From Paludibaculum fermentans (GTDB lineage Bacteria > Acidobacteriota > Terriglobia > Bryobacterales > Bryobacteraceae): a stretch of 64,000 bases of DNA. The notes under the pieces are model-generated. The model saw only the letters and a program-made list of their open reading frames with translations, searched no databases and was not told the origin of the DNA. The stretch covers positions 4,588,001 to 4,652,000 of the forward strand of contig NZ_CP063849.1 of NCBI RefSeq assembly GCF_015277775.1. The letters run 5' to 3'. Of this stretch, positions 8,869 through 62,001 are shown in pieces. How positions within the stretch are numbered: the first letter of the stretch is position 1; each line of letters begins with the position of its first letter. A program made the position numbers and the translations under genes.

Positions 8869-10227
8869 CTACGAGATGATCGCTTTGATCAGATTCCCGT
8901 GGACATCGGTCAGGCGGAAGTCGCGACCGCTGTAACGATAAGTCAGCCGCGTGTGGTCGAGCCCCAACTGGTGGAGGATCGTCGCATGCAAGTCGTGCAC
9001 ATCCACCGGGTTCTCCACCGCTTTGAAACCGAACTCGTCGGTGGCGCCATAGACCATGCCGCCGCGGAAGCCGCCGCCGGCCACCAGGGAACTGTAGCCA
9101 TGGTTGTTGTGATCGCGGCCGTTCTGCACCTTTACGAGTCCGCTCACCTCAGTCGCCGGAGTGCGGCCGAACTCGCCGGTCACCACCACCACGGTTTCGT
9201 TCAATAGCCCGCGCTGCTTAAGGTCGCGGATCAGCGCCGCGATGGGCTTGTCCGCCAGCCGCGCCAGGCGGCGGTGGTCGAGAATGTCCTCGTGGCTGTC
9301 CCATGGCTGGTCGTCACCGAAGTAGACCTGTACCATGCGCACGCCACGCTCCACCAGGCGAGCCGCCATCAGGCAGCCGCGAGCAAAGTCGCCGTCGCCA
9401 TACGTCTCGCGCACCTTCTCGGGCTCTTTGGAAATGTCGAACGCTTCCGCCGCCTCGGTCTGCATGCGGTAGGCGATTTCCATCGACTGGATGCCGGCCT
9501 CGAGTTGCGGGTCGTCTCCTTCGCGCTGCGTCTGCAGGCGGTTCAGTTGCCCCAGCAGGTCCAACTGCCGCTTCTGGTCCTCCGGCTTCCAGCGCGTATT
9601 GTGCAGATTGGGGACGAGCTTGTCGACTTCCTTCTCGTTGTTCGGAATGTAAGCGCCCTGATAGACACCAGGCAGGTAGGACGACGTCCACAGAATGGGA
9701 CCGAGCACCGGCAGCCCGGGACACAGCACGACGAAGCCCGGCAGGTTCCGGTTCTCGGTGCCCAGGCCGTACGTCACCCACGAGCCCATGGAGGGATGGC
9801 CCGGCAGCCGCTGCCCGCAGTTCGTCAGCAGCAGCGAAGGTTCGTGGTTCGGACGCTCAGTGTGCATCGAGCGGATGACGCAGAAGTCGTCGATGACCGA
9901 CCCGACCTCAGAGAAGATCTCGCTCACCTCGATCCCACTCTGGCCGTACTTCTTGAACGTGAAGGGCGAGCCCAGCAGGTTGCCCGTCTTCCGCTCACTC
10001 TTGAGATTCGGCGTCGGCATGGGCTTGCCGTGCATGCGCTGCAGGTCGGGCTTGGGGTCGAAGGTGTCCACCTGCGACGGCCCGCCGTTCAGGAACAGGA
10101 AGATGACATGCTTCGCCCTGGCCGGGAAGTGCGTCGCCTTCGGAGCCATGGGGTCGGTCGCCACCTGGGCAAAGGCAGCCATGGGGAAGCCGGCGCCCAT
10201 CGTCTTGAGCAGGTCACGTCGTGTCAT
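8869..10227 (-). CDS. DUF1501 domain-containing exported protein
   Basis: 452 residues from the ATG at 10227, chosen because it gives a twin-arginine type signal (MTRRDLLKTMGAGFPMAAFA) and sits 2 bp after the stop of the upstream cytochrome gene. The body has the alkaline-phosphatase/sulfatase-like DUF1501 fold: HVIFLFLNGGPSQVDTFDPK near the start, VVVTGEFGRTPATE in the middle, and an H-rich end (GRDHNNHGYSSLVAGGG). In planctomycetes and acidobacteria DUF1501 genes are almost always paired with a PSD1-type cytochrome gene, as here. The reaction is not established. Confidence 0.93.
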   Translation of the reverse strand: MTRRDLLKTMGAGFPMAAFAQVATDPMAPKATHFPARAKHVIFLFLNGGPSQVDTFDPKPDLQRMHGKPMPTPNLKSERKTGNLLGSPFTFKKYGQSGIEVSEIFSEVGSVIDDFCVIRSMHTERPNHEPSLLLTNCGQRLPGHPSMGSWVTYGLGTENRNLPGFVVLCPGLPVLGPILWTSSYLPGVYQGAYIPNNEKEVDKLVPNLHNTRWKPEDQKRQLDLLGQLNRLQTQREGDDPQLEAGIQSMEIAYRMQTEAAEAFDISKEPEKVRETYGDGDFARGCLMAARLVERGVRMVQVYFGDDQPWDSHEDILDHRRLARLADKPIAALIRDLKQRGLLNETVVVVTGEFGRTPATEVSGLVKVQNGRDHNNHGYSSLVAGGGFRGGMVYGATDEFGFKAVENPVDVHDLHATILHQLGLDHTRLTYRYSGRDFRLTDVHGNLIKAIIS

Positions 10228-10229
10228 CG

Positions 10230-12797
10230 TTACTCCACGTACAGGAACTCGTTCGCGGCCAGCAGGACCTGCGCATAGCGCGTCCACGCGTCCTGGCCCT
10301 GTTGCAGGAACTCCAGCCCGAGCTTGAGCTCTTCGGCGCCCGGCAGCCGCGAATACATTAATTCGTACGCCATGCGGATCTTCTCTTCATGGGTGCCCTT
10401 CAGGCGGGCGGCCAGCGCGTCGGACTCGCGCAGCACCAGCGGATTGTTCAGGAAGAAGAGGCGCTGCAACGGCACGCTCGTCACGTTCCGCTGCTCGTTC
10501 GTCGTATTTGGATTGGGATGGTCGAACATCGCCAGCAGTTGATCCAGCTTGCGCCGGCTGCGGAAGCCGTAGACCGTCCGCCGCAGGTTTTTCTCATCCG
10601 TCAGCCGTAGCGCCGGACCGCCGACCGTCGACGTATCCAGGTTCCCGGCCACGGCCAATAGCGTGTCGCGCATCGACTCCACATCCAGCCGCTGGCGGTT
10701 CGCGCGCCACAGATACCGGTTGCCCGGATCCTTCTCTTCGTTCGGCGCCGAGCGCTCCCACGCCCCGGCATAAGTGCGCGACAGCACGATCTCCCGATGA
10801 ATCGCTTTCACGCTCCAGCCGCTTTCCACGAAGCGGGCCGCCAGGTAGTCGAGCAGTTCCGGATGCGTCGGCCGCTCGCCCAACTGTCCGAAATTGCTGG
10901 GCGTACCTACAATGCCGACGCCGAAGTGGTGCTGCCAGATACGGTTCACCATGACGCGCGGTGTGAGTGGATTGCCGGGGCTGGCAATGTCGCGGGCCAA
11001 CTCCAGACGCCCGCTGCCCTGCGAATAGGCCTTAGGTTCGCCGGAGCTGAGGATCGAAACGAAATGGCGCGGCACCTCCGCACCCGGATTGTCGCGGTTG
11101 CCGCGAATCAGGATATGCCCATTCTTCGGCTTCTCGACATCCTTCACGGCATGCAGGAACGGATACTGTTCCGGCAGCGACTTCTTGATCTCGGCCATGT
11201 CGGAACGCAGCTTCGCCAGGTGGGTCCGGTGCAGATCGCCCAGCCAGCGATCCAGCTTGTCGCCGCTGTAATACAGCACACCCTTCCGGGCACCATAAAC
11301 CTCGTTATAGAAGCGGAACTTCGGCCGCTCCAGCGACAGCAGTTCGGTGTCGCTGAGATCGTTTCGTTGCGATGAGCCGCCCAGGCGGATCAGGTTCTTC
11401 TGGTCGATCTCCTTCTTCTCCGCAAGCACGCCCAGCACTAGTTCCTGGAACTTGTCGGCGTCCTTCCAGTTGTCGAGGAAAGGATGCTCGTGCATGCCGG
11501 GCTTCAGATAGGTGCGCCAGTGTTCCAGCGTCTCCGGATCGAGATCCTTGGCGTCCCGCTCGCCCTGCACAGCCCTGACGTAATCGGCCGTGCGCGCAGC
11601 CAGCATGCCGGCTACTGAGATGGCCTGCTCTTCCTGGAACGCCTTCAGTTCGGCCTCTTTGTCGTCGAGACGCTTCTTGTGCGCCTTCCAGCGCTCCACG
11701 ACTTCGGCGGACGCCAGCGGAACTTCGTCGACCACCGTGTTGTTGAAGACACCTTGCAGCGAGTAGAAATCGGCCTGCGGAATGGGATCGAACTTGTGGT
11801 CGTGGCATTGCGCGCATGCCACGGTGAGGCCCAGGAAGCCGCGGGTGGTTGCGTCCACACGCTCGTCCTGCTGCTCCGGACTCAGCCCATAGAACGTCAG
11901 CCCCGGCAGCAGCTTGGCTCGCTCCGGCTCCGGCATCTGGTCGGCCGCGATCTGCGCCATCACAAACCGGTCGAACGGCATGTCGTCGTTGAACGCCTGG
12001 ATCACCCAGTCGCGATAGCGGAAGGCGTTCGGATGCACGAGCTCCTTCTGCGACTCCAGTCGATCGTCGGAGTATCGTGCGACGTCCAACCAGTGGCGCG
12101 CCCAGCGCTCGCCGTATCGAGGAGAAGCCAAGAGGCGGTCGACCACCTTGGCTTCCGCCTTGGGTGAGCGGTCGTTGAGAAACAGGTGGACCTCTTCGGG
12201 CGTCGGCGGCAGGCCCGTGAGATCGAACGTCACCCGGCGGATCCACACGCGCTTGTCGGCGCGCGGTGCGGGCGTCAGGCCCTTCTCGCGCAGCTTGGCG
12301 TAGATGAACTGGTCCACCGGCGAATGCGACCATTCGGCGCTCGCCGCCGCCGGTGGGGCTACTTTGCGTACAGGCTGAAAACTCCAGAACGCGCGCTGCT
12401 CGGGGCTGATGGCCGTGGCCTGTGCCTGCACCTTCGCGCGCTCCGGCCACACAGCGCCGTCGCGGACCCACTCGGCCAGCACTTCAATCTCTTCCGGCTT
12501 CAGCTTGCCCATCGGCGGCATCGCTTTGATGGATTCATCCGCCTGGCGCACGGCCTGGATCAGCCGGCTCTGGTCCGGCTTGCCTTCGACAATGGCCGGT
12601 CCGCCCTTGCCGCCCGCCAGCAGGGCTTCCCGCGAAGTCATCGCCAGCCCGCCCATCTTTGACGCAGTGTGGCAAGCGAAACAGTTGCGGGCCAGAATCG
12701 GCCGCACCTTCATCTCAAAACGCTCTTCGGGCGTATCCGCGGACGCGGGGACACACAACGCGAGCAGTAATCCGGCAGGGATCGCCCAGGAGGACAT
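10230..12797 (-). CDS. PSD1 / planctomycete cytochrome C domain-containing protein (DUF1549-DUF1553)
   Basis: 855 residues. A signal peptide (AIPAGLLLALCVPASA) is followed by a c-type haem domain with CFACH at about residue 39-43 (PSCyt1), then DUF1549 (PSCyt2; FIYAKLREKGLTPAPRADKR onward) carrying a second CxxCH (CAQCHDHKFDP, about residue 330), and the C-terminal DUF1553 (SPGNPLTPRVMVNRIWQHHF to the end). Exported and haem-binding; these proteins work with a DUF1501 partner, here encoded 2 bp downstream. Role probably in periplasmic breakdown of polymers or sulfated/phosphorylated substrates, which is inference. Confidence 0.94.
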   Translation of the reverse strand: MSSWAIPAGLLLALCVPASADTPEERFEMKVRPILARNCFACHTASKMGGLAMTSREALLAGGKGGPAIVEGKPDQSRLIQAVRQADESIKAMPPMGKLKPEEIEVLAEWVRDGAVWPERAKVQAQATAISPEQRAFWSFQPVRKVAPPAAASAEWSHSPVDQFIYAKLREKGLTPAPRADKRVWIRRVTFDLTGLPPTPEEVHLFLNDRSPKAEAKVVDRLLASPRYGERWARHWLDVARYSDDRLESQKELVHPNAFRYRDWVIQAFNDDMPFDRFVMAQIAADQMPEPERAKLLPGLTFYGLSPEQQDERVDATTRGFLGLTVACAQCHDHKFDPIPQADFYSLQGVFNNTVVDEVPLASAEVVERWKAHKKRLDDKEAELKAFQEEQAISVAGMLAARTADYVRAVQGERDAKDLDPETLEHWRTYLKPGMHEHPFLDNWKDADKFQELVLGVLAEKKEIDQKNLIRLGGSSQRNDLSDTELLSLERPKFRFYNEVYGARKGVLYYSGDKLDRWLGDLHRTHLAKLRSDMAEIKKSLPEQYPFLHAVKDVEKPKNGHILIRGNRDNPGAEVPRHFVSILSSGEPKAYSQGSGRLELARDIASPGNPLTPRVMVNRIWQHHFGVGIVGTPSNFGQLGERPTHPELLDYLAARFVESGWSVKAIHREIVLSRTYAGAWERSAPNEEKDPGNRYLWRANRQRLDVESMRDTLLAVAGNLDTSTVGGPALRLTDEKNLRRTVYGFRSRRKLDQLLAMFDHPNPNTTNEQRNVTSVPLQRLFFLNNPLVLRESDALAARLKGTHEEKIRMAYELMYSRLPGAEELKLGLEFLQQGQDAWTRYAQVLLAANEFLYVE

Positions 12798-47410: not shown

Positions 47411-48307
47411 TTGCAGCGGGACTCGGGCTGGGCCAGGGGGAATGCTGGAGGTGGCGGGCGTGGGGGTTGGGGGGGCTGGCGATGGTTCGGTCTGGTCGCT
47501 TTGGTTTGGTGGGTTTGGCTCGGGCGTCGTTGGGATTGCGGCGGGCCCCCGGCTCCGCCGGGGGTAAGGCTGGGGGGAGTGGGCGTTGGGGGTGGGGATT
47601 GGGGCTGCAGCTGATGCCGGGGAGGGCGAGTTGGACGGATTGAGACCGCTGGGTGAATGGGTTTGGTCGGCCAAATTCAATGGGAGATCCGATTTGCAGG
47701 GGGCTGGCGACGAGTGGGGTTGCTCGCTTTGGTCTGGTGGGTTTGGCTCGGGCATCGTTGGGGTTGCGGCGGGCCCCCGGCTCCGCCGGGGGTAAGGCTG
47801 GGGGTGGCTGGCGTTGGAGTTGGAGAGGGCTGGCGATGGTTTGGTTTGATTGCTTTGGTTTAGTGGGTTTGGCTCGGGCGTTGTTGAGGTTGCGGCGGGC
47901 CCCCGCTCCGCCGGGGAGAAGGCTGGGGGTGGCGGGCGTTGGGGTTGGAGAGGGCTGGCGGTGGTTCGGTCTGGTTACTTTGGTCTGGTGGGTTTGGCTC
48001 GGGCGTCGTTGGGATTGCGGCGGGCCCCAGCTCCGCCGGGGGTAAGGCTGGGGGTGGCTGGCGTTGGGGTTGGGGAGGGCTGGCGATGGTTCGGTCTGGT
48101 CGCTTTGGTTTGGCGGGTTTGGCTCGGGCGTCGTTGGGATTGCGGCGGGCCCCCGGCTCCGCCGGGGGTAAGGCTGGGGGGAGTGGGCGTTGGGGTTGGA
48201 GAGGGCTGGCGGTGGTTCCGTCTGGTTACTTTGGTCTGGTGGGTTTGGCTCGGGCCTTGTTGATGTTGCGGCGGGCCCCCGGCTCCGCCGGGGGTAAGGC
48301 TGGGGGT
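47411..48307. repeat. 125-bp GC-rich tandem repeat array A with hairpin core
   Basis: A core (GGCGGGCCCCCGGC, CTCCGCCGGGGGTAAGG) starts at 47540, 47768, 47894, 48019, 48144 and 48270, with a degenerate copy near 47415; spacings are 125-126 bp except one of 228. The core contains an 8-bp hairpin, CCCCCGGC/GCCGGGGG, with a 3-nt loop. The 228-bp gap holds an inserted segment whose 42-bp part (47634-47675) recurs at 48364-48405 and partly at 47298-47319. No stop codon interrupts the minus-strand frame shared by flanking genes. The same core occurs at 61459-61914. Confidence 0.9.
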
Positions 48308-51769: not shown

Positions 51770-53101
51770 TCACGACGGACAGTCAGGGAGACGGGCGGCC
51801 ACGGTGTGATTTGGAACCGGGGCGACCGCGGCGGGTGATTGCGCGATGGCGGCCGGGAGCTGGGCAAACGACCTGCGGCTGAGGCCGGAAAGCTCCATGG
51901 CGATGCGGCGGCGCACGAAGGGCAATCTGTTGATGAAGGACAGAAGGCCATTGCGCAGGGCGAGTTTCGCCGCGCCGCGCAGGGTGGCGAGCGTGGTGAG
52001 ACGGCCGGCCAGAGCCAGGACGCGGCTTGCCGCCGGGCGGCGCATTTTCCGGTAGGTGTCGAGGATCGCGGAGCCATCCGCCGCGCGGACGGCCCTGGCG
52101 AGCAGTTGGCCGAGAACGACGGCATCCACCAGACCGGTGTTCATGCCCTGGCCGCCCGCGGGGCTGTGGACATGGGCGGCGTCACCCATGACGAGCAGGC
52201 GGCCGTTCCGGTAGTCGTTGGCCACGCGGTGGTGCAGGCGGAAGCGCGAGCTCCAGAGGACCTCTTTCACCTTGTCTGTGCCGGCCGCGGGTCCGCGTGA
52301 GTCGAGCAGAGCCTGGATGTCGTCCACTCCGGGTTGCTCCGGCGCCTGGTGGACGGTGGCCACTACGCGGAAGATGCCATTGGGCAGCGGCGCCACGACG
52401 ACGAGGCCCAAGGGGGAGAAGAAGAGGGAGACTTCGTTAGCGAGCGCCCAATCCATGCGTACGTCGGCGAGGACGAAGGACTCCTCGTAGGTCCCGCCTT
52501 CGAAGCCGATGCCGGCGGCGGCGCGCACGATGCTGTGCATGCCATCGGCTCCGACCACATATTGGGCACGAAGGGAGGCGGGTCCGGAGGGGGTGGCCAG
52601 AGTGACCGAGACGCCGGCGGGATCCTGGGTGACGGCGGTGGCGGTGACTCCGCGGAAGATGTGTCCGCCCAGGGCGGTGAGGCGGTCGCTGAGCACCTTT
52701 TCGGTGAGGTCCTGGGGGAGCATGAGCAGGTAGTGGTAAGGGGTGGGGAGCGGATTGAACTGGAGTTTCAGGAGGACTCCCTGGCGATTGCGGATGCAGA
52801 AGTTGCTGAGCGGTATGCCGAGTTGCACCAATTGCCGTGAAACTCCGAGGGATTCCAGCATTTCGAGGGTATGGGCGTGGATTACGCCAGCTCGGGAGGT
52901 GTTGAGGCCCTGCTGTAATTTGTCGATGATGACGTGCTTCACTCCGGCCTGTTGCAGGGCAATGGCGAGGGCCATGCCGGTTGGGCCGGCGCCGACGATG
53001 AGGACTTCGGTGGCGGCCGGGAGGCATTCCGGCTGATGGAGCTGAGGGTGTTCTCCTGCGATCGGCGGAGGAGTGGATGGGGTCGACGATGGATGCAGCA
53101 T
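51770..53101 (-). CDS. FAD-dependent aromatic-ring monooxygenase (PheA/TfdB/UbiH-like)
   Basis: 443 residues. The FAD Rossmann motif GAGPTGMALAIALQQAG lies at 37-53, the DG motif in YVVGADGMHSIVR (about 190), and the second FAD motif in LLVMGDAAHVHSPAGGQGMN (about 320). This is the flavin monooxygenase family that hydroxylates phenols, polyketides or ubiquinone precursors using NAD(P)H and O2. The N-terminal ~30 residues are Pro-rich and probably not conserved, so the true start may be internal. No partner genes beside it. Confidence 0.9.
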   Translation of the reverse strand: MLHPSSTPSTPPPIAGEHPQLHQPECLPAATEVLIVGAGPTGMALAIALQQAGVKHVIIDKLQQGLNTSRAGVIHAHTLEMLESLGVSRQLVQLGIPLSNFCIRNRQGVLLKLQFNPLPTPYHYLLMLPQDLTEKVLSDRLTALGGHIFRGVTATAVTQDPAGVSVTLATPSGPASLRAQYVVGADGMHSIVRAAAGIGFEGGTYEESFVLADVRMDWALANEVSLFFSPLGLVVVAPLPNGIFRVVATVHQAPEQPGVDDIQALLDSRGPAAGTDKVKEVLWSSRFRLHHRVANDYRNGRLLVMGDAAHVHSPAGGQGMNTGLVDAVVLGQLLARAVRAADGSAILDTYRKMRRPAASRVLALAGRLTTLATLRGAAKLALRNGLLSFINRLPFVRRRIAMELSGLSRRSFAQLPAAIAQSPAAVAPVPNHTVAARLPDCPS

Positions 53102-53732
53102 GGTTTGGGGTCTCCTTGGTCAGGATGCGGTGGATGGGGGGTGGAAGGGGAGTAGCTTACCGTTCGAGACGTTGGTTGGAAGTGCAGGGGGGAGGTGGAG
53201 GCGGTTGCCGAGATTCCCTACTGATCTAAGAGGTGATCTGGATGGCGTTGGAGTGGCTGGCGGCTGGGGTGGGGTAGGGGGTGGTGGCGGGTGTTAAGTG
53301 GAGGGGGCCGTTTTGGTCACCACTGAGGCTTCCTGTAGGGAATGGGGGGATGGGCGGTCTGGGACGGAGGGGGTTGGGGACTTTCGGGGAGGGGGACGTT
53401 CACGCCCTGGCAACAGGGGGAGAGAGTTGAGATTGGAGCGGTGTTCGTTTGTGCCAGGGATGAACGTCCCCATGGGGGTGTGGCGTGCGTTGGGGTCTGG
53501 GACGGAGTGAGTTGGGGCCTCTGTGCTGGATAGTCCCGAGTGGTGAAAAGGCCAGTCAGCGACTGGCCAATGGGGGGCAGTGCGTGGCGGGGCTATTGTA
53601 CGACTGTGTTCTCGTCGTGGATTGCGCCAGTCTCCGCTGGTTTGCAGATCTGGCCTATCGTCAACCCTTGGTTTACAAATTGCGAATAACATAAACTTGC
53701 AGCGAGTTTAAAAAAGCAGTAACTTGTAAACC
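53102..53732. other. Gene-free interval with hairpin repeat, island boundary
   Basis: 631 bp, G-rich then turning AT-rich towards 53700. It holds hairpin copy B (53392-53471). From about 53640 base composition drops, marking the left edge of the island. The A/T-rich run before 53733 (ACTTGCAGCGAGTTTAAAAA) may contain the antitoxin promoter. Confidence 0.55.
53392..53471. repeat. 80-bp hairpin element, copy B
   Basis: Same design as copy A: arm GGGGACGTTCACGCCCTGGC starting at 53392, arm TGCCAGGGATGAACGTCCCC (53452-53471), 39-nt loop ending TGTTCGTTTG. Loop sequence differs in its middle while both arms and total length are kept. Confidence 0.85.
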
Positions 53733-54575
53733 ATGGGTGGTCAAAACCAGGGAAAGTTAAACTGGCTACAGCACAACCTCCCGGACGGGTTGGTGGTCGA
53801 TGCCGGCTGGCTGGAACGGCACGGGGTCTCACGCCAGCTCCGGCACAAGTACATCCTGAACCGCTGGCTGGTCGCCTTAGGCCGGGGGGTGTATCGAAGG
53901 CCGGACTTGTCAGAAGAAGCCGAACCGATCGCATGGCAACAGTTGGTGATCTCCCTGAATGTTCTGCTGCAGGTTCCTGTGTCGGCCGGCGGCAGGACCG
54001 CGCTCGAGTTGCAGGGCTTCCAGCGCTATGTCGCGGCCCAGGGTGCGCGCGAAGCGCATGTGTTTAGCAACGCGGCGCTGCCGGGCTGGGTGTCGAAGGT
54101 GCCGGTTGATGCGCGCCTGGTGTTCCACCGGGCGACGAAGCTCTTCCGGAATGGCTCGATCCCGCCCTACAGCGCTCTCACCGGTGCGACCGCGCCCGCG
54201 GCGAGCGCCGGCGTGACGCAGTTGGTTTTGGGGCACTCGAAATGGCCGCTGACGGTCTCGACACCCGAGCGCGCCATCCTGGAACTGCTGGATGAGGTGC
54301 CGAAGCGCGAGACCTTTCATCAGGCAGATGTACTGATCGAGGGACTGCGTAATCTGAGTCCGCGGCGGCTGCAGGGGTTGCTGGTTGATTGCCGGAGCGT
54401 CCAGGTGAAGCGCCTATTCTTCTGGTTTGCGGAACGGCACAGGCATTCCTGGCTGGCGAAGCTGGATCGAACGGCTGTCGACCTTGGGCGGGGGAAGCGG
54501 ATGGTGGTGCGCGAAGGAAGGTTGGATTCGAAGTATGGCATTACTGTGCCGGAGGAGTTGAGTGGGGGTCTCTGA
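53733..54575 (+). CDS. abiEi: AbiEi-type antitoxin (type IV toxin-antitoxin)
   Basis: 280 residues. The N-terminal winged helix (HGVSRQLRHKYILNRWLVAL; LGRGVYRRPD) is the AbiEi_3-type DNA-binding part; the following region (GGRTALELQGFQRYVAAQGA; TVSTPERAILELLDEVPKRE) matches the antitoxin domain. AbiEi neutralises the AbiEii nucleotidyltransferase toxin and autorepresses the operon. The partner should follow; here only the first 31 codons remain (54562-54711). The antitoxin itself looks intact. Confidence 0.88.
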   Translation: MGGQNQGKLNWLQHNLPDGLVVDAGWLERHGVSRQLRHKYILNRWLVALGRGVYRRPDLSEEAEPIAWQQLVISLNVLLQVPVSAGGRTALELQGFQRYVAAQGAREAHVFSNAALPGWVSKVPVDARLVFHRATKLFRNGSIPPYSALTGATAPAASAGVTQLVLGHSKWPLTVSTPERAILELLDEVPKRETFHQADVLIEGLRNLSPRRLQGLLVDCRSVQVKRLFFWFAERHRHSWLAKLDRTAVDLGRGKRMVVREGRLDSKYGITVPEELSGGL

Positions 54576-54711
54576 AGGGTATCGCCGACAGGCGGCGTTG
54601 CTGGTGCGAGCCATGCCGCTGGTGGCCGAGGAAGCGTCATTCGCGCTGAAGGGCCGCGAAAAGCAACGCCATCTCTGCCGAACTTGCGCAGAGGGTGGTC
54701 TTCCTCAATAG
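54562..54711 (+). pseudogene. AbiEii toxin remnant (nucleotidyltransferase core missing)
   Basis: A GTG at 54562, with ribosome site GGAGGAG and a 14-bp overlap with abiEi, opens VSEGYRRQAALLVRAMPLVA and EEASFALKG, the characteristic start of AbiEii just before its GGTAIN nucleotidyltransferase motif. The frame then switches to unrelated sequence and stops at 54711 after 49 residues. A different frame directly after (from 54662: AISAELAQRVVFLNR, stop) could be the fused end of the gene. The catalytic GSxxD-type and later motifs are absent, so the toxin cannot be active. Confidence 0.7.
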
Positions 54712-54787
54712 ATAACGGTGGGACGGGTCAATTCCACGGCACCCATCCCAACAGACCCGGGGTGCAATCATTACGTCGCGATTGGCG

Positions 54788-55648
54788 TTACTGCGCAACA
54801 CTGCCGAGTGGGAACAATCGATTCTTGAACTCGCTGTACTTCAGCACGCTCATCTCACTGCCAATGATCTCGGCCACGGACGTTAGTGCTTCGCACTGGC
54901 CTGCATCGTTCGTCACGAACTGCTCACAGTAAGGGAGATAAACAGCTGAAAACATGTCCAATCGTCCAGCCTTACCTAGCGATTTCTGCCTCTCATCGCG
55001 AATACAGCGATCATACTGGCTGAAGCAAAGGGCGACTAGAAGCGCCTTGAAAGGGGGGCACCGCTCACTGAAGCCCTGGACTTCTGTGCGACTGAGACGA
55101 GTACCTGCCCCGCGCTCGAAGAGATCAACGGCAAGCTCAATGTGCGCGCCGTCCTCGGCCAGTAGCCTCTCAGTGACTTTCTCAAGGGATGGTCTTTCTC
55201 CAGAGCACTCCACAAAAAGAGCCTGAAACGCAGGCTTTGCATTCGAGAAGATTACTCGGAAATCCCTCTCCCATTGGCGCAGGCTCTCGCGAGTCTGCTG
55301 GCTAATCTCGTGAATGATCTCCTGTCGGACGATCTCACCTTCCGCTTCAGGAAATCGGACGTTGACGCTCATCCACTCGTAAGCATCCCGATTCGCCAAG
55401 TATGCTCTCGTGTGCTCCTCGATGATTCCATGAAAGGGCAGAACACACATCCCAGACTTCAGCAACCGCTCGACAATACCAAGCAGCTGGATTCGGCGGG
55501 CTTCATCGGGGCTTGCAGCAATCTCAGAGATTGAGGTTTCAGTTACGCCGACGAAGTAAGCGGAACGAACTCCTTGCACCAGGACCGTCCACTCTGAGTC
55601 ATCGGCCAAGGCATTGATGGCGCTCGTATCTAGAATTAGTTTGCTCAT
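54788..55648 (-). CDS. PIN-domain-like protein
   Basis: 286 residues. The N-terminus MSKLILDTSAINALADDSEW has the PIN-fold first Asp (D7) and the conserved Ser/Asn; near the C-terminus GRLDMFSAVYLPYCEQFVTN gives further acidic residues and the D-based turn (VTNDAGQ). The long helical middle (100-220) is not typical of VapC, so it may belong to a larger defence-associated PIN family. Expected to be an RNase. No antitoxin gene is directly adjacent. Base use is AT-richer than in the flanks. Confidence 0.7.
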   Translation of the reverse strand: MSKLILDTSAINALADDSEWTVLVQGVRSAYFVGVTETSISEIAASPDEARRIQLLGIVERLLKSGMCVLPFHGIIEEHTRAYLANRDAYEWMSVNVRFPEAEGEIVRQEIIHEISQQTRESLRQWERDFRVIFSNAKPAFQALFVECSGERPSLEKVTERLLAEDGAHIELAVDLFERGAGTRLSRTEVQGFSERCPPFKALLVALCFSQYDRCIRDERQKSLGKAGRLDMFSAVYLPYCEQFVTNDAGQCEALTSVAEIIGSEMSVLKYSEFKNRLFPLGSVAQ

Positions 55649-55958
55649 GCTCTATCCTACGCGGCTCTTTTCCAGAATAGATCGACCAAGATCGAATCAG
55701 GTCCAATTCGAGGGCTGAGATGTCTACGGACAATTAGGCGTGGGCTTAGTTTCGATCTTTTCCGAAGACTAACCTCAAGCTACATCCAAGGAACAAAGAC
55801 AATCCGACCTGCCGCCAGTCTCGTAAATCAGCTCCGGCATCGCCTCCTCCCAAATCCGCTCAGCACACTTGTCAAACGAGCGGCTTCTTTGGGGACGTGA
55901 TTGGTTCGGGTCATCTAGCGAGCGCAATGAGTCGGAATCGCAAACCGATCGGATTCTC
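55649..55958. other. Interval between RT and PIN-like genes
   Basis: 310 bp. It has one 50-codon minus-strand frame (TTG at 55927 to stop at 55775) without ribosome site; I do not call it a gene. No group II intron domain V/VI-like structure is recognisable downstream of the RT. Confidence 0.5.
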
Positions 55959-57167
55959 CTATCTGCGATGTGCAGCTACTTTATCTCTCGTCGAGGAAAA
56001 TGTCCGAACGCCCACACGGCGCAATTGACCGAGGCTTAGCGTTCTTCCTCCATCAAGTAATTGCAGTGCCCGAAAGAGGCCATTGACTTCAATTTGCAGA
56101 TGTTTATCAAGAAGCTGATATTCGTCTCGCGAGTGACAAAAGGCATATGCCTGACACCAGCCACAAACAGTCTGATCAAGTGCATTCAAAGCTACTGCCA
56201 ATGTCTTGCGACTCCCGCGCTGTCTACATATTTCCCCAATTGCTTCCTTGACAGTGGCTACAGATTTACGCGCTGGATAAATCCGTCCGCCTTCGAAGCG
56301 CACGCCAAGAAATACGAATCCTTGAATATACTTGAATATTCTAGTTTTCGCCTTTTCTGCCAATGGTGGACTGAGAGGATGGAGTTTCAGGTGTAGACGT
56401 CCCTCCAAGATATCTACACAGCGTCCGTAGGCGGCCTCCGCTTCCGCTTTGGATTTGCACATCACTATGAAATCGTCCACATACCGAATAAGCTTGAACC
56501 CACTCTTCTCCATCTCCAAGTCAAATTCACGCAGGTACAAATTTGCCAGCATCGGCGAGAGCGCCGATCCCTGCGGTATGCCGACATGCGCGGGCGGCAA
56601 AAGCTCTCGGTCTTTAGTACTCATCCGATCGAGATTGCCAACCATTGGCGTCGATGAGTCTTCGATCAGTCCAAGCAGGCTTCTGCACCTGTAGTGCCGC
56701 AAGTACTGACGGAACAATATAGATCGGTCAATGTTATCGAAGAATTTGCTTAAATCCGCTTCCAGAACCCATGTATGCCCACTGTTGTACAAAGCGCTTA
56801 TGCGACTGATTGCGCCCTTGACGCTACGGCCTTCGATGGATCCGAAGCTGCATGCAGGGTCTGGCACTTTGCCCTTGAGAACGAGTTGAACTGCTTTGGC
56901 CACAACTCGGTCTCTAATTGCAAATACCTTAAGTGCGCGCTTGGAGCCATCAGGTTTTGGGATGAAGACGGCCTTCACGGGCGCAAATCGGTAAGCTCTG
57001 CGTGCGAGTTGTGAAGATATGTTCTTTAGGTGCGTGTCTAGATTCGACTCGAAGCTTGACATCGACTCTTCTAGGATGTCTTTGGACTGCTTATTCTCTT
57101 TGCGAAGCGCGTCCCAGGCTTTTTTGAGAAAATCGGGCCGGGCAATGGTATCGACAGCCGAAATCAA
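55959..57167 (-). CDS. Group-II-like reverse transcriptase (no intron features)
   Basis: 402 residues. RT0/N-terminal part DFLKKAWDALRKENKQSKDI, RT motifs FIPKPDGSKRALKVFAIRDR (68-87), EADLSKFFDNID (136-147), GIPQGSALSPMLANLYL (196-212) and the catalytic RYVDDFIVMC (228-237); a maturase-like thumb region follows (ALDQTVCGWCQAYAFCHSRD). IPQG..SP and YVDD resemble group-II-intron and group-II-like RTs rather than DGR or Abi-type RTs. No endonuclease, and no intron RNA is evident. The start codon is a TTG at 57167 that lies inside a TTGA overlap with an 84-codon gene; the next ATG is 35 codons in and would lose the N-terminal helix. AT-rich relative to flanks. Likely a defence or retroelement RT of unknown type. 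Confidence 0.9.
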   Translation of the reverse strand: MISAVDTIARPDFLKKAWDALRKENKQSKDILEESMSSFESNLDTHLKNISSQLARRAYRFAPVKAVFIPKPDGSKRALKVFAIRDRVVAKAVQLVLKGKVPDPACSFGSIEGRSVKGAISRISALYNSGHTWVLEADLSKFFDNIDRSILFRQYLRHYRCRSLLGLIEDSSTPMVGNLDRMSTKDRELLPPAHVGIPQGSALSPMLANLYLREFDLEMEKSGFKLIRYVDDFIVMCKSKAEAEAAYGRCVDILEGRLHLKLHPLSPPLAEKAKTRIFKYIQGFVFLGVRFEGGRIYPARKSVATVKEAIGEICRQRGSRKTLAVALNALDQTVCGWCQAYAFCHSRDEYQLLDKHLQIEVNGLFRALQLLDGGRTLSLGQLRRVGVRTFSSTRDKVAAHRR

Positions 57168-57418
57168 AGTGCCAGATACCTCTGTCGCCCGTAGAAGATG
57201 AAAGATCCGGGCGACACATTCGCTTGCGCTAACAAGGTATCGCTTGCAGCACCGCCGACATGGTTATCGCGATATGCGACCCCATCTTCAGAGCCCGCTT
57301 GGCTGTTTCCAGCGTCTGCGCCCCCAAAGACCGACGGCAGTGCTCCAGTGGCGGTTTCGAGGTGGACCGAGACATTAACCGAGGCGACAAAGTCGACCCC
57401 CGTAGAAATCTTCGCCAT
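57164..57418 (-). CDS. Small protein coupled to the RT gene (contains repeat copy)
   Basis: 84 residues from the ATG at 57418, preceded by GGAGA with 9-nt spacing. Its stop overlaps the RT start as TTGA, indicating translational coupling. The sequence (MAKISTGVDFVASVNVSVHL; SVFGGADAGNSQAGSEDGVA) has no recognisable family; 35 of its codons lie in the 106-bp repeat. It could be a real small protein of the RT system, or a by-product of a structured RNA. Confidence 0.5.
   Translation of the reverse strand: MAKISTGVDFVASVNVSVHLETATGALPSVFGGADAGNSQAGSEDGVAYRDNHVGGAASDTLLAQANVSPGSFIFYGRQRYLAL
57237..57342. repeat. 106-bp direct repeat, copy 1
   Basis: Identical in all 106 bases to 57627-57732, 390 bp away (a multiple of three). 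It starts GTATCGCTTGCAGC and ends CGACGGCAGTG, and contains the palindrome TATCGCGATA. It ends 70 bp upstream of the RT start, where retron-like or DRT systems often place an RNA template. Confidence 0.97.
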
Positions 57419-57626
57419 ACCAAGAAATCTCCATTCTAAGTATACAACAAAGCCCAAGCAAAAAGCAAGGACTAAATTGCATATTGCCTGCCTAAGGCCC
57501 CGAAATAGGGGCCACTCCCTCCACCGGATCGCCAGATTATCTCTGTGCAACGCATCTTCATTGACCTCGTTGCTTTGACCCGCGGTCTGACACGGCGACC
57601 ATTCCTGGAAGCCACCGACCTCGAAA

Positions 57627-57732
57627 GTATCGCTTGCAGCACCGCCGACATGGTTATCGCGATATGCGACCCCATCTTCAGAGCCCGCTTGGCTGTTTCC
57701 AGCGTCTGCGCCCCCAAAGACCGACGGCAGTG
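57627..57732. repeat. 106-bp direct repeat, copy 2
   Basis: Exact second copy of 57237-57342, in the same orientation. The sequence between the copies (57343-57626) is unique. In the frame of the small RT-linked gene, translation is open from just after a TAG near 57741 through both copies to 57164. Confidence 0.97.
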
Positions 57733-57789
57733 GTAGCCTCTACTTCCTATACAGAGCACCATTCAGTGCACTGCACAAGGTGGAGAACA

Positions 57790-58047
57790 TTAGTAGAAGT
57801 ATACCGCCTCAGCGCGGAAAGTAAACAGGGAATTTCTCCTCCGCAGGGCTTCTGTCACGCCGTCGAGAAGGCGTGCCATCGCGAGGATCGGCTCATCCGG
57901 GATCTCACCCACAGGCGCGGCGATTTCAATCGTAATCACCGGCGACAGAGTCGCAATTACCAGAGACCTTAGCCGTGGGCGCTCCTGTCTAGCCTTCGAT
58001 CTTGATGCTTCATATATGTGTCCAGACACTGCATGCGGCCCAAACAA
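57790..58047 (-). CDS. Possible small protein upstream of the RT locus
   Basis: 85 residues from a TTG at 58047; residues such as SLVIATLSPVITIEIAAPVG and ILAMARLLDGVTEALRRRNS look protein-like (amphipathic beta then helix). No good ribosome site and no known family. It is the same strand as the RT and small gene, so may belong to that operon. Confidence 0.35.
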   Translation of the reverse strand: MFGPHAVSGHIYEASRSKARQERPRLRSLVIATLSPVITIEIAAPVGEIPDEPILAMARLLDGVTEALRRRNSLFTFRAEAVYFY

Positions 58048-58463
58048 GAAAGTAGCTTCTTGGTCGGGCTATAGGATATGATTCGCGGCGGCACACTACG
58101 CGCCTTCAACTCGCATCACCGGATCGGAAGCCCCCTAGAATCAATCTCTAGCGTTGATCGCCTCTCAACCAATGAGAGACGCCACCAGTGCCAACGAGAT
58201 TGACCATCCCCAGCAGTCGGTTTGGCCAAGCGCGGTGTCGAGAATGCCTAGCCCTGGACTTCGAAGACTCACCCGCGCCCCGGGAGTTGACGCCTTAGGC
58301 CAGAATTGCGAGCCCTGAAATCCACTCCCGATAGGAAATTGCTCCTCCGCTGGGTGAGGTGTAGATAGGCTGCGCGTTGGCCGGATGGACAGTAGCCCAC
58401 GACGATAGAACAACTCCACTGCAGTTGGCGAACCAAAGCGCCGATCTGAGATCGAGGCTCCAC
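58048..58463. other. Divergent interval, no gene seen
   Basis: 416 bp between the minus-strand RT locus and the plus-strand nuclease-like pair. It is AT-rich at its left and should contain both promoters. I see no inverted repeat or RNA gene signature of note. Confidence 0.5.
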
Positions 58464-59654
58464 ATGGCAAGATCGGCAGCGGAAGTGAAATTCAGCAGGA
58501 TGCTTGGCGAACTTGGTGAACGAACTATAGCGTTCGCGATACTTAAGGACATGGGGGTAAGTGCCCCAGAGAGCCTTAATGACCGCAGAGCCAACTATCC
58601 GTTCGCCGACTTCATCGGACGGAAGAGCGGGCGCTTTGTTGCCGTTGCGGTACGTACCCGCGTCAACTGGCAGAAACCACGGCCCGGGCGCACCCCCTTG
58701 CTGAACGGAAGCTTCAATGGCGCTGGTGAACCAGAGATTGACAAGGCGCGCGCGAAACTTCGACAGGACTTTTCGATTGTAAATGGGGACATCCTGTTCC
58801 TTTGGCTTGCAATCGCTGTTGACCTAGACGATACCTATGAGGCCTACTGGGGAACCCGAGAGGAAATGAGCGGCATCGGTGGCTCAGAGACGCTGTTGAG
58901 GATTCCCATGAAACTTAGGAACCGATACAGCTATGCCGCATCGGGAAGGAGAATTGCCTGGAGAGCCGAATGCGCTATTCCTTGGCACGAATATCCTGGG
59001 AACTGGACCTTTCAGGCAAGGAAGCGGTGGGAGGAGTTGGCGCACATACCTAATCGGGACGATCGAATCCTTCGAGCAATCCGCGACTCGAATCCGACAG
59101 ATGCCAGAACATCGACGGCAACTCGTGCCGATGCTATCCGTTCTACCACCCTTTCCTCTGTTCCGATTCACTCTGCCGCAACCGCTGTGACAAAACCTTC
59201 GGAATTCCTGAACCCCACGCGTAGAAAGATGGCAGCATTGCTACGCGAGAATCACCCCGTCCCAATTTGCATCGCGGTACTTGATTCGCTGGTCCAGACC
59301 GACTCTTGGACGGACATGCGGGCACTGAAAGGGCTTATGTCGTTACGATCGAATACACAGGGCCGCCCGTGGTCGCACAAATCTTACTCCGACCCTGCTA
59401 ATGCACTGGAGGACAATCGATTCTTGGAGTCCAGGCGGGAGGGCAGATCAGTCTTACGACGCGTGACAGCGGAAGGACGAAGTTTTCACGACCAGAGGCC
59501 AAGTGCCGTTTTGTCGGCAGTCAAGGCCAATGCCTGCCAAGTCGAGCCGCAAAGTTGCCAGCGTTCTCATGAATACTCCCGGTTTGATCGCAAGTCGGAA
59601 CCTGAATCTACTTGCGCCTACCTAGCCGGCGAGGACTCGCAGTCCAACGCGTGA
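58464..59654 (+). CDS. DUF4365-like / degenerate PD-(D/E)XK nuclease-like protein
   Basis: 396 residues from the ATG at 58464 (GAGG 7 nt upstream). The first ~100 residues follow the DUF4365-like pattern: ELGERTIAFAILKDMGVSAP (helix with Glu), NYPFADFIGRKSGRFVAVAV (Asp49) and the expected VQVK strand read here as VAVRTR, so lysine is replaced by arginine and glutamine by alanine. The fold may therefore be inactive or altered. The remaining 300 residues (SIVNGDILFLWLAIAVDLDD; IAVLDSLVQTDSWTDMRALK) are unrecognised. Together with the next gene (22 bp downstream) it seems a two-gene module. Confidence 0.6.
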   Translation: MARSAAEVKFSRMLGELGERTIAFAILKDMGVSAPESLNDRRANYPFADFIGRKSGRFVAVAVRTRVNWQKPRPGRTPLLNGSFNGAGEPEIDKARAKLRQDFSIVNGDILFLWLAIAVDLDDTYEAYWGTREEMSGIGGSETLLRIPMKLRNRYSYAASGRRIAWRAECAIPWHEYPGNWTFQARKRWEELAHIPNRDDRILRAIRDSNPTDARTSTATRADAIRSTTLSSVPIHSAATAVTKPSEFLNPTRRKMAALLRENHPVPICIAVLDSLVQTDSWTDMRALKGLMSLRSNTQGRPWSHKSYSDPANALEDNRFLESRREGRSVLRRVTAEGRSFHDQRPSAVLSAVKANACQVEPQSCQRSHEYSRFDRKSEPESTCAYLAGEDSQSNA

Positions 59655-59676
59655 ACCGTTGCGCCAGGTAGGCTGG

Positions 59677-60354
59677 ATGAACATGCCGCTCCAACTTGTG
59701 CACATCGGTGAAGACCTTATCGCAAACATGCTTCGCGAGATTTCGAAGCAGGGGCGGCTCACGGATGTCACCTGCGCCATCTCTGGCCGGACATTTGCCG
59801 ATGACGTTTGCGCCGGTGGGTTGAGCGAGGCTGAGGATTTCCTGGCAGAGAAGGCTTCGGTTTGTGTCCAGACGGATCAAGGCGACTATGCCTGCGACGG
59901 AGCGCAAAAGATCGATGTATTGTGCGTGGGCGGCCAGCACGGAATCGCCATCGAGGCGAAACTGGGTGAGAGCCTGATGCTGGGCGATCAGTTCCGGAAG
60001 AGGTTCTGCGCACCTTGCGAAGCCTCTCTTCACCAGAATCGACGCCTACGCGGCAGCATGATCGCTGTCCTGGAGCGCTCCTTTCATGACGATGTTCCGA
60101 AGTGCTCAAAGATTATGTGTCGCGTCGGGGACAGAACCGTCACCCTCGGTCTGGGGTGGTGGCTGGTTGTGCGCCGTTCGGTTCTGGCTCTGTGGATGAA
60201 GCGACAGGATGTTCCTGTGTCGCCACAATTCGCGCGGGTTGTGGAGTTCGAGAGCCTGATGGCGCTGTATGGGCGCGACCGGTTCGATGCGCTGGTCCGG
60301 GAAGTGGTGGGGGAGAAGAGTTTCGCCAGGGAATGGAGACTTGGGGCAGGTTAG
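59677..60354 (+). CDS. PD-(D/E)XK-like nuclease domain protein
   Basis: 225 residues from the ATG at 59677. Asp80 in KIDVLCVGGQHG and IAIEAKLG (Glu93, Lys95) match the D...ExK active-site pattern of PD-(D/E)XK nucleases; an N-terminal glutamate (HIGEDLIANMLREI) may be the first acidic residue. The second half is rich in W and R (GLGWWLVVRRSVLALWMKRQ) and unrecognised. Probably a DNA-cleaving partner of the protein at 58464 in a defence-type pair; this is inference. Confidence 0.6.
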   Translation: MNMPLQLVHIGEDLIANMLREISKQGRLTDVTCAISGRTFADDVCAGGLSEAEDFLAEKASVCVQTDQGDYACDGAQKIDVLCVGGQHGIAIEAKLGESLMLGDQFRKRFCAPCEASLHQNRRLRGSMIAVLERSFHDDVPKCSKIMCRVGDRTVTLGLGWWLVVRRSVLALWMKRQDVPVSPQFARVVEFESLMALYGRDRFDALVREVVGEKSFAREWRLGAG

Positions 60355-60808
60355 TGCTGCGACAGTGCTGAAAGGCTTCGCCTAGCAACTCGTGTCATCG
60401 AGGTTACGGGTGTTCAAATGTTGCCACTCCGTTGAAGGCGCGCTGGTAGCCCGTCACTGGCGTTCCGGGACTGCGGAGCGGACGGGCTACCACTTCTTTC
60501 GCAGCCGCGATGATCATACTTGACTCCGCTGGCGACGCTTCCGCAGCCGAGGCCCACTCCTTGCCAGTCGTGGTTCGCAGCGCGGCGGGGACCACTCCCT
60601 CAAGGTCGTGGTTCGTAGCGGCTTGCTCCGCTTCGGCTATATCGAGGTGCGTGGGTGAAGACGCGCGGATTGTGGCAGTGCCTGGTTCGCTCGTTGGTTG
60701 GAGGCTATCAGTTGCTCCCCCGCTCCTGTTAGTCGCGGCTCTGATCGCGGCTTGCTGCGCTTTGGCGGGCCGACCGGGCCGGGTGCGACCTGTTTGAAGT
60801 TCTCCGAT
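60355..60808. other. Right edge of the island, no confident gene
   Basis: 454 bp. Contains the inverted repeat at 60444-60492 and two similar short segments (GTCGTGGTTCGCAGCG and GTCGTGGTTCGTAGCG) at about 60567 and 60606. A 95-codon open frame (60510-60797) has no ribosome site or known domain. Confidence 0.5.
60444..60492. repeat. Inverted repeat with 12-bp perfect arms
   Basis: TGGTAGCCCGTC (60444-60455) and GACGGGCTACCA (60481-60492) are perfect complements separated by 25 nt. It follows the last island gene and could be a transcription stop or a small palindromic repeat. Confidence 0.7.
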
Positions 60809-61251
60809 TTATCTCGATCGCTTCAGCACTCGCAGGGCCGGGAGGTGTTCCTCCAGCCGTGGTGCGTCTAGGGTTCCCGTGCAGGCGCTTGTGTACAATT
60901 CTCCCGATTCCGGGTCGGTTTGGGCGTAGACCAGGTAGAGTTCTCCGGACAGGAATGAGAAAGTGCAGCCGGCGTACGTGGCTGCTACGGTGAGGCGTTC
61001 CTGGTGTGGACCTCGAAAGGATTCCTGGATCCGGAAATTCACATGGCGGTTGCCGAGGAAGCGTTGCGCGCGATGAAGACAGCGATGTCGTCCGTCCAAC
61101 TGCGCTCCACGACTCCCAGGAAGACACGGCTGGACCGGAGGTAGGTTTCTTGCACGGAACGACCATCGCCAGAACACATGCAGGCGCTCGCTGGTACGGC
61201 CAGCAGGAGTGAATGCGCGCAGAGGAGGAGCAGACGGGCCGGGTGCGTCAT
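60809..61251 (-). pseudogene. Frameshifted NTR/TIMP-like secreted protein
   Basis: The ATG at 61251 (AAAGG upstream) opens a lipoprotein- or Sec-type signal (HPARLLLLCAHSLLLAVPAS) and a start typical of NTR-like proteins (ACMCSGDGRSVQETYLRSSR, then VFLGVVERS). That frame ends at 61039, but the expected continuation (HVNFRIQESFRGPHQERLTV; AGCTFSFLSGELYLVYAQTD; SACTG) lies in another frame and runs to 60809. One frameshift near 61040-61085 explains both. Either a pseudogene or a base error in the sequence. The four conserved cysteines are split between the halves. Confidence 0.8.
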
Positions 61252-61454
61252 CGGGTTGACCTTTCGGGCGGGCTGGGCGGGACTTTGATTCGGGCTTCCA
61301 TGGTTCCGCTGGAGATGGCTCGCCGCACGCTGAAATTGACACCGGGGCGGCTGTGTTGGTTTCTGCTGGCCCGCGTGGAGTGCGGGGCTCGGCACGCTGG
61401 GGACGGGACTGGGTGCATTGCGGAGGTATTCGGATGGGTCGAGAGGCTACCGGG

Positions 61455-61914
61455 TTGCGGCGGGCCCCCGGCTTCGCCGAGGGTAATGCTGGGGGAGGCG
61501 GCTCGGGTTGATCGGGGGCCTTGGCTCGGTCGGGGCTCGTTCGTTCGATTGCGATGGTATTCGGATGGGGCGAGAGGATACTGAGTTGCGGCGGGCCCCC
61601 GGCTTCGCCGGGGGTAATGCTGGGGGAGGCGACTGGGGTGGATTGGAGGGCTGGCTCGGTGGGGTCCTCGTTCGATGGATTGCGGTGGTATTCGGATCGG
61701 TCGGGAGGCTACCAGGTTGCGGCGGGCCCCCGGCTTCGCCAATGGCTTCGCCGGGGGTAATGCTGGGGGAGGCGGCTCGGGTTGATTGGGGGGCTTGGCT
61801 CGGTGCGGGCTCGTTCGTTCGATTGTGATGGTATTTGAGTTTGTCGGGATGCTGCTGGGTTGCGGCGGGCCCCCGGCTTCGCCAATGGCTCCGCCGGGGG
61901 TAATGGTGGGGGAG
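61455..61914. repeat. 130-bp GC-rich tandem repeat array B with the same core as array A
   Basis: Cores begin at 61459, 61589, 61721 and 61864 (spacings 130, 132 and 143 bp). The core GGCGGGCCCCCGGCTTCGCC...GGGGGTAATGCTGGGGGAG matches array A except C/T and T/G changes, and keeps the CCCCCGGC/GCCGGGGG hairpin. The sequences between cores differ from those of array A. The third and fourth copies carry an extra 12 bp (CAATGGCTTCGC or similar) inside the hairpin loop. Confidence 0.9.
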
Positions 61915-62001
61915 CCGGATTGGATGGGTTGGGGACTGTGTGGGGCGGGTGTTCCGCCCGCGGGGCGTTTCGGCCGGTTGGCCGGAGGGGGCGGGTGCGT
62001 T

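Follow-up and report, generated by a model that had tools for sequence, protein, structure and literature searches.

The reverse transcriptase gene and its upstream repeats

The 64,000-nucleotide stretch of the Paludibaculum fermentans genome considered here (contig NZ_CP063849.1, positions 4,588,001 to 4,652,000; below, the window, whose own numbering is used) contains a gene for a group II-like reverse transcriptase (RT) preceded by two long direct repeats. The RT gene is on the minus strand (55959..57167, 402 aa, assumed TTG start at 57167), and the repeats are placed on its 5' side. They are two exact copies of a 106-bp element, the proximal one at 57237..57342 and the distal one at 57627..57732 (minus strand), with a spacing of 390 bp, sharp edges and dissimilar flanks, and 69 nt separate the end of the proximal copy from the assumed start. 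The element is present in two copies in the 9.53-Mb genome, the next-best match having an E-value of 0.135. The initial annotation, which had reported two identical 106-bp copies 390 bp apart near the RT start, was thus correct, coordinates included.

Between the copies lies a unique middle region of 284 nt (57343..57626, minus strand), which together with one copy forms a 390-nt unit. Folding predicts a hairpin with a 9-bp stem and a 16-nt loop between the proximal copy and the RT start (57183..57216, minus strand). Two -10-like boxes upstream of the proximal copy, TATACT and TAGAAT (57433..57444, minus strand), can be seen by eye and were not called by the promoter scan. The latter found one promoter-like site, TTTACT-16-TATACT (57798..57825, minus strand), facing the distal copy 65 nt ahead of it, versus 0.3 expected in shuffled sequences.

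The RT carries the motifs IPQGSALSP and YVDD. It scores 85 bits with RVT_1 and 214 bits, the cut-off being 300, with TIGR04416 (group II RT/maturase), in agreement with the group II-like character earlier proposed from YVDD and IPQG..SP. The GIIM score is 16.3 (cut-off 23), and that of the RT from a relative, G723, is 27.6. By sequence, the best match among solved structures is the G2L4 RT (118 bits); the AlphaFold model (seven sequences, mean pLDDT 79.5) has the G2L4 RT (E = 2.9e-21) and the GsI-IIC RT as its nearest folds. The protein also matches the RT part of a Cas1_IIIb fusion model in PADLOC. The scores are below the cut-offs for the Drt2 family (63 bits, cut-off 390) and for the RT models of retrons, whose multicopy single-stranded DNA has a branching guanosine (best 47 bits, cut-off 235), and the name Drt7/UG10 is absent from the best 25 of 87 PADLOC hits. 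Membership in UG17/DRT10 was rejected, the model matching all 11 RTs of our alignment A1 (best E-value 3.3e-48 versus 2.5e-42 for the window RT). By these profile comparisons, identity with a retron or a named defence-associated RT (DRT) is not shown, and the clade described below is not assigned to any family tested here.

Paired repeats in related loci

In a tree of 127 RTs, the RT of the window genome (G000) and those of six other Acidobacteria (G723, G854, G826, G606, G978 and G972; 35–40% protein identity) form one clade with the SH-aLRT support of 98. Its sister is a pair from candidate-phyla bacteria, L129 and L134 (support 96), the latter being a member of Nomurabacteria, and the next branch is formed by the RT-Cas1 fusions L009 and L013 (92), in which Cas1 domains were found. 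This is a quick LG+G4 tree of a convenience sample, made without bootstrap and with no labelled UG, retron or diversity-generating retroelement (DGR) sequences, and the branch that bears L129 and L134 is long, their sequence composition being unusual. The active-site motif of the window RT, YVDD, recurs in L129 and L134; the six other Acidobacteria have YADD.

Two copies of a repeat precede the RT gene in six loci of this nine-member clade; two loci have one copy, and the locus of G972, whose contig starts within the proximal copy, is not assessable. In the two-copy loci, the copies seen are 79–145 nt long, have zero to two mismatches per locus, and recur with a period of 303–449 nt. Beside the window (106 nt, spacing 390), pairs with no mismatch are found in G723 (145 bp, spacing 392), G854 (at least 79 bp, spacing 386) and L134 (at least 118 nt, spacing 303), the contigs of the last two starting within the distal copy. 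The copies of G978 (138 nt, spacing 396) have one mismatch (C/G), and those of G826 (133 nt, spacing 449) have two (G/A and C/G).

The blastn comparison of the proximal or single copies (plus strand, E ≤ 1e-3) yields matches only inside three groups, G723/G854/G972 (84–90% identity), G978/G606 (98%) and L134/L129 (81%, between the L134 repeat and the single copy of L129), while the repeats of the window and G826 match none. Thus the repeats of five lineages are mutually unmatched at this threshold and yet nearly identical within loci; the paired state is therefore old, with the copies being kept alike in each locus. Over the comparable 79 nt, G723 and G854 are 83.5% identical to each other, and the two copies are identical inside each genome. 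In the per-site count, both copies are alike at 13 of the 20 divergent sites; given that either genome has two identical copies along these 79 nt, we attribute the remaining seven to columns in which alignment A8 puts the copies out of register with each other. Judging from the sequences, the repeats evolve in concert, being alike within a locus and diverged between loci. Of the suggestions in the initial annotation, recent duplication is not supported, as the paired state is common to lineages with unlike repeats and hence the identity is maintained. Support exists for functional repeats that form part of the RT locus, as relatives and the distant sister pair keep a paired or single copy in a structured region before the RT; this upstream design is common to the homologues.

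As a control, we considered 117 RT loci outside the seven Acidobacteria that had enough upstream sequence (L129 among them). Two of these have an upstream repeat scoring at least 60, namely L010 and L026, and both carry group II intron RNA. These are Acidobacteria group II introns with long upstream direct repeats of scores 99 and 80 and spacings of 273 and 113, respectively. No title or abstract opening in the literature covered, most subscription papers lying beyond that coverage, reports paired repeats of this kind.

The system is rare and scattered within the genomes searched. Among 396 genomes of the phylum, the window RT matched its own genome alone at 1e-50; at 1e-22, 47 genomes were matched, with identities of 27–38% apart from the RT itself. 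Seven of 399 genomes of the class were matched at 1e-38, including its own and those of two close relatives, G723 (237.8 bits, 38%) and G606 (225 bits, 36%), and only its own RT was found among 200 genomes of the order. Three of 300 genomes of the family of G723 (1e-45) were matched, these being G723, G854 and G826; similarly, G606, G978 and G972 were the three matched of 62 genomes in the genus of G606 (1e-70), and two further genera (9 and 24 genomes) yielded only already known members. A designed query, applied as a pattern scan to 84,980 species and blind to relatives that do not have the two patterns, produced 20 RT loci, including L129 and L134. On plasmids (up to 5000 records covered) and phages, the window RT has no place with identity of 60% or more (among the 40 and 20 matches listed, the maxima are 32.0% and 32.1%, respectively). 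For the G723 and G606 RTs, the places found on plasmids were all below 60%, and the viral scans yielded only distant RTs, at best 34% or less among the candidates examined (up to 600 in one of the scans).

Structure and reading frames of the upstream region

The upstream region is better conserved than the RT gene. Between G723 and G854, it is identical at 397 of 510 positions (78%) versus 800 of 1203 (66%) in the RT gene, where third codon positions are at 41%. In the RT sense, the fold z-scores of the region (up to 590 nt adjoining the RT; 40 dinucleotide shuffles) are -3.5 in the window, -4.4 in G723, -6.5 in G854 and -3.8 in G826, the corresponding antisense values being -2.2, -2.4, -1.9 and -1.1. 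Eight RT-coding controls range from -2.3 to +1.1, and L134 yields -3.1 in the sense and -1.8 in the antisense orientation. In the window, the z-score of 57168-57760 is -2.9, and the proximal copy by itself folds in the RT sense at -41.4 kcal/mol (z -2.0). On the fold z-scores, 57168..57770 (minus strand) is a proposed non-coding RNA (ncRNA) region.

A structure predicted from one relative (of G723 and G854), when carried over to the other, is broken 36 times versus 45.4 expected (P = 0.0135), and in the second such test 32 times versus 49.4, with none of 2000 shuffles as low; the RT-coding controls gave P of 0.41 and 0.33. The three alignable sequences were too few for a covariance model, and four upstream regions had diverged too far for their global DNA alignment to be reliable. 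Conservation and stability thus argue well for a structured RNA, and covariation argues for it weakly.

A hairpin just before the RT start appears in the folds of the window, G723, G854, G972 and G826, and can be recognised by eye in the L134 and L129 sequences. Facing the distal copy, promoter-like sites are found in the window and G978; -10-like boxes resembling the 57433..57444 pair are seen by eye in relatives. Also by eye, the middle regions of G723, G854 and G826 have in common two blocks, AGGAGAACGAYGGCAA and GACAAAAAAC, ahead of a -10-like box (L154 about 6470-6600, L159 about 175-300, L160 about 7050-7150, minus), and a GC hairpin then follows in G723 and G854.

An RT-sense frame of 190 codons is open through both copies in the window (57167..57736, minus strand), and the 390-nt unit is stop-free therein. 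When joined head to tail, the units of the window (390), G978 (396) and L134 (303) are divisible by three and have one stop-free sense frame. The units of G723 (392), G854 (386) and G826 (449) leave the remainder of two, and the longest open stretches are 142, 136 and 183 codons, respectively, exceeding one unit. Thus the sense frame is open over at least one whole unit in all six two-copy loci, being endless in three, versus one of six for the antisense strand. Circular dinucleotide shuffles yield P of 0.025 (window), 0.035 (G723), 0.147 (G854), 0.036 (G826), 0.011 (G978) and 0.015 (L134), and the Fisher combination over five lineages, with G854 omitted, is 3.5e-5 for the sense and 0.46 for the antisense strand. 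An earlier duplication-preserving test gave P of 0.0145 (antisense 0.12) for the window, 0.0955 (0.55) for G723, 0.1675 (0.71) for G826 and 0.0075 (0.09) for G978.

More conventional genes were considered and rejected. One is an ordinary small protein gene: for the 84-aa open reading frame (ORF) at 57164-57418, neither Pfam, NCBIfam and PADLOC nor plasmids and viral contigs yielded a relative, and the G723/G854 substitutions have no codon pattern in the frames that run through the repeats. Likewise, an ORF with a conserved ATG in the middle region is not retained, the ATG of G723 and G854 being ACG in G826 (by eye).

Interpretation and comparison with known systems

A structured, conserved, apparently non-coding region with two near-identical elements precedes a group II-like RT. 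From this layout, we infer, tentatively and with a likelihood somewhat short of even, a stand-alone RT–ncRNA system whose repeats would allow the RT to switch templates and so make concatemeric or circular cDNA. One RNA would span the distal copy, the unique middle region and the proximal copy. The RT would bind the 3' part of this RNA and copy the proximal copy, the middle region and the distal copy, whereupon the nascent cDNA would switch from the distal copy to the proximal one, identical to it; retroelements with long terminal repeats make such a transfer with R, and DRT10 makes it with A/A' on a far smaller scale. This would yield a concatemer or a circle with a period of about 300–450 nt. 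The copies would be kept identical by the base-pairing that the transfer requires as well as by ordinary recombination between them. We favour template transfer because it would explain why two copies are needed and why they must be identical. The repeats may also serve as the repeated template proposed in the initial annotation.

The concatemer may also bear a promoter, along with a reading frame whose two parts are separate in the genome, the middle region being the start part and the distal side the end part, as in the neo gene of DRT2. The middle region would then provide the promoter and a hydrophobic start part, and the distal copy would lead into the end part; units joined at the long repeat would place the start part, the repeat peptide and the end part in one frame, endless in three lineages. 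Such a gene, assembled only by reverse transcription or in a circle formed by the repeats, would make the locus a second neo-type system beside DRT2, which we consider unlikely. If true, it would rely on long repeats and on RTs of the group II-like kind, and would occur both in Acidobacteria and in bacteria of candidate phyla. A protein encoded by the product would be the boldest element of the template-transfer reading.

Several observations weigh against this reading. G606 and L129 have a single copy, and hence either the second copy is dispensable or these loci are dead. The right flank of the G606 copy is that of the G978 proximal copy, and its left flank resembles that of the G978 distal copy (13/16 nt by eye), a pattern that the loss of one unit through recombination between the copies would produce. 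L129 has no excess folding (z -0.7 sense, -0.1 antisense), the retention of antisense structure is mildly raised too (P = 0.043 and 0.037), and compensatory double changes are not above chance (4 versus 2.7, P = 0.28; 5 versus 2.9, P = 0.15). The folds of G978 and G606 do not show the hairpin before the RT, and the promoter scan called no site in the G723 region. As for the frame, the test was devised after two loci (the window and G978) had been inspected, with only L134 tested afresh (P = 0.015), and three of the six units are not multiples of three, whereas all 42 DRT2 units compared are described as divisible by three with one stop-free frame (PMC12039810). The G723/G854 differences are flat over codon positions in the proposed frames (20/29/17% and 23/21/23%), as are those between L134 and L129 (8, 6 and 8); thus codon-position substitutions do not support coding. 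Nor does the proposed frame clearly surpass other frames in amino-acid similarity. Lastly, ordinary gene conversion could explain the identity of the copies without any RT.

The best-surviving alternative, possible though doubtful, is that the copies are identical RNA leaders or RT-binding sites. The distal copy would start a separate ncRNA that includes the middle region, and the proximal one would lead the RT mRNA; the RT would bind both and tune its own synthesis, gene conversion would maintain the likeness, and template transfer would not be needed. Terminator-like hairpins in the middle regions of G723 and G978 fit this arrangement, as do the -10-like boxes that precede the proximal copy, the TTGACA-16-TATAAT site just ahead of it in L134 and the TATAAT box kept before the copy in one-copy L129 (boxes and site by eye). 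However, exactness over 79–145 nt is left unexplained, as structure alone would suffice, as is the fact that the unit has an open frame on the sense strand. Likeness of the copies can be maintained by gene conversion under both the leader and the template-transfer explanations.

It is improbable that the locus is a degenerate group II intron, with its RNA decayed past recognition and the hairpin before the RT being a relic of domain IVa. The RT is indeed nearest to G2L4, group II and RT-Cas1 enzymes, and the IVa hairpin of group II introns sits at the ORF start. However, in Rfam scans at the gathering score, which covered 20 loci (18 of them outside the clade), group II RNA is found in 16 of the 18 non-family loci, whereas it was found in none of the nine family loci, and paired repeats are not needed by group II introns. 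At E ≤ 1, the scans of the nine family loci yield no group II intron RNA, the hits in L134 being weak, unrelated and distant from its RT, and no Rfam family is found in positions 53000-61000 of the window, in line with the earlier description of an RT without intron RNA. A mobile group II intron was rejected on the same absence of intron RNA in Rfam and on the TIGR04416 score (214 versus the cut-off of 300 bits). Integron repeats of the attC type were also rejected, the RYYYAAC/GTTRRRY boxes known for them not being seen by eye at the repeat ends.

A diversity-generating or retrohoming pair, in which one copy is the template repeat (TR) and the other the target, or variable repeat (VR), rewritten by cDNA, is very improbable. 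The size and nearness of the copies resemble those of TR and VR, and identity is maintained in each locus; but in DGRs the two differ at adenines and the RT carries QG..SQ. Here, the RT has QGSALSP, four of the six pairs have no mismatch, the differences in G826 (G/A and C/G) and G978 (C/G) form no adenine pattern, and codon-position counts for G723/G854 give no sign of a copy inside a conserved protein gene. Chance, or a recent functionless segmental duplication kept identical by gene conversion, is hardly credible. Single copies in G606 and L129 would fit recombination between copies, but six loci from five lineages have the pair at almost the same place ahead of the RT, and the region is better conserved than the RT gene; the design is common to relatives and not private.

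A role of the RT–ncRNA system in phage defence is suggested by neighbours only, which fit it and prove nothing. In the window, AbiEi is encoded at 53733-54575 (PF11459, 138 bits; PADLOC, 294 bits); a PLD-like gene lies by G606, and DpnII-MboI-type and DUF5677 genes by G826. The PLD-like gene (L155 4844-6046, minus) overlaps the end of the G606 RT gene, and no such ORF is listed beside the closely related G978 RT. Of the defence-like neighbours named in the initial annotation, AbiE is confirmed, whereas the PIN-like and nuclease-like genes are not, the ORFs 54788-55648, 58377-59654 and 59659-60354 having no Pfam, NCBIfam or PADLOC match at E ≤ 0.1. The ORF 57790-58047 has no match in these libraries either, and no link of it to the RT system was seen. 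The AT-rich island is such only in relative terms, with GC content of about 48–58% versus mostly 60–71% on both sides. Other repeats in the window are four imperfect copies of a GC-rich tandem repeat at 61391-61932 (spacing 131–143 nt) and short repeats at about 47473-48300.

RTs copying a neighbouring ncRNA have lately been found to make odd products: stop-free genes, homopolymers and telomere-like repeats. The present clade has two long upstream repeats kept identical by concerted evolution over large distances, and as evolution has varied the design several times, template change by bacterial RTs becomes testable. The system may reveal another class of genes invisible in the linear genome sequence.

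A close parallel in layout is DRT2, where the RT is also directly downstream of a structured ncRNA, and the concatenated unit is described as yielding a stop-free frame with a promoter (PMC11100668, PMC12039810, PMC12483538). However, the window RT is outside that family (63 versus 390 bits), the unit is 303–449 nt here and about 120 nt in DRT2, it is flanked by repeats of 79–145 nt instead of short ACA motifs, and only half of the six units are divisible by three. In DRT10 (UG17), which also has YVDD, the template is described as flanked by direct repeats, A-B-A', that let the cDNA realign (PMC12632851). Unlike the present repeats, A and A' are 2–4 nt in the examples described there, the main one of which has a 9-nt repeat unit. 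DRT10 also needs a SLATT protein, and none was found among seven window proteins scanned or the partly scanned neighbours in relatives; the UG17 model, matching every RT of A1, is non-discriminating. The G2L4 RT, a domesticated group II-like enzyme acting in DNA repair, is the best structural match both by sequence and by fold, but it is reported to have YIDD (PMC4244168), versus YVDD or YADD here. UG10 (G2L3) is described in the same source as having YVDD in all members and a maturase domain; among the seven Acidobacteria RTs, YVDD is found only in the window, this comparison being made with a tree that holds no labelled UG10 sequence.

Of the CRISPR-associated RTs, the RT-Cas1 fusions L009 and L013 are the nearest outside branch in the tree. 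The nine family loci contain no CRISPR family in the Rfam scans, and no cas family was found among the seven window proteins scanned or the few neighbours scanned in relatives. A separate case is L139 (4500-7687), from an Oscillochloris metagenome-assembled genome, where cas1 and cas2 adjoin the gene of a YVDD RT whose PQG motif is preceded by a large insertion; an RVT_3/RNase H-like ORF lies upstream of this RT, and a CRISPR-DR10-like array at 10197-10524.

Retroelements with long terminal repeats (LTRs) transfer nascent cDNA via their R repeats. They differ from the present system in that no integrase or RNase H family is found among the seven window proteins scanned and the genome has one locus. 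The likeness, an analogy, is in the direct repeats at both ends of the presumed RNA and in the single repeat left after recombination.

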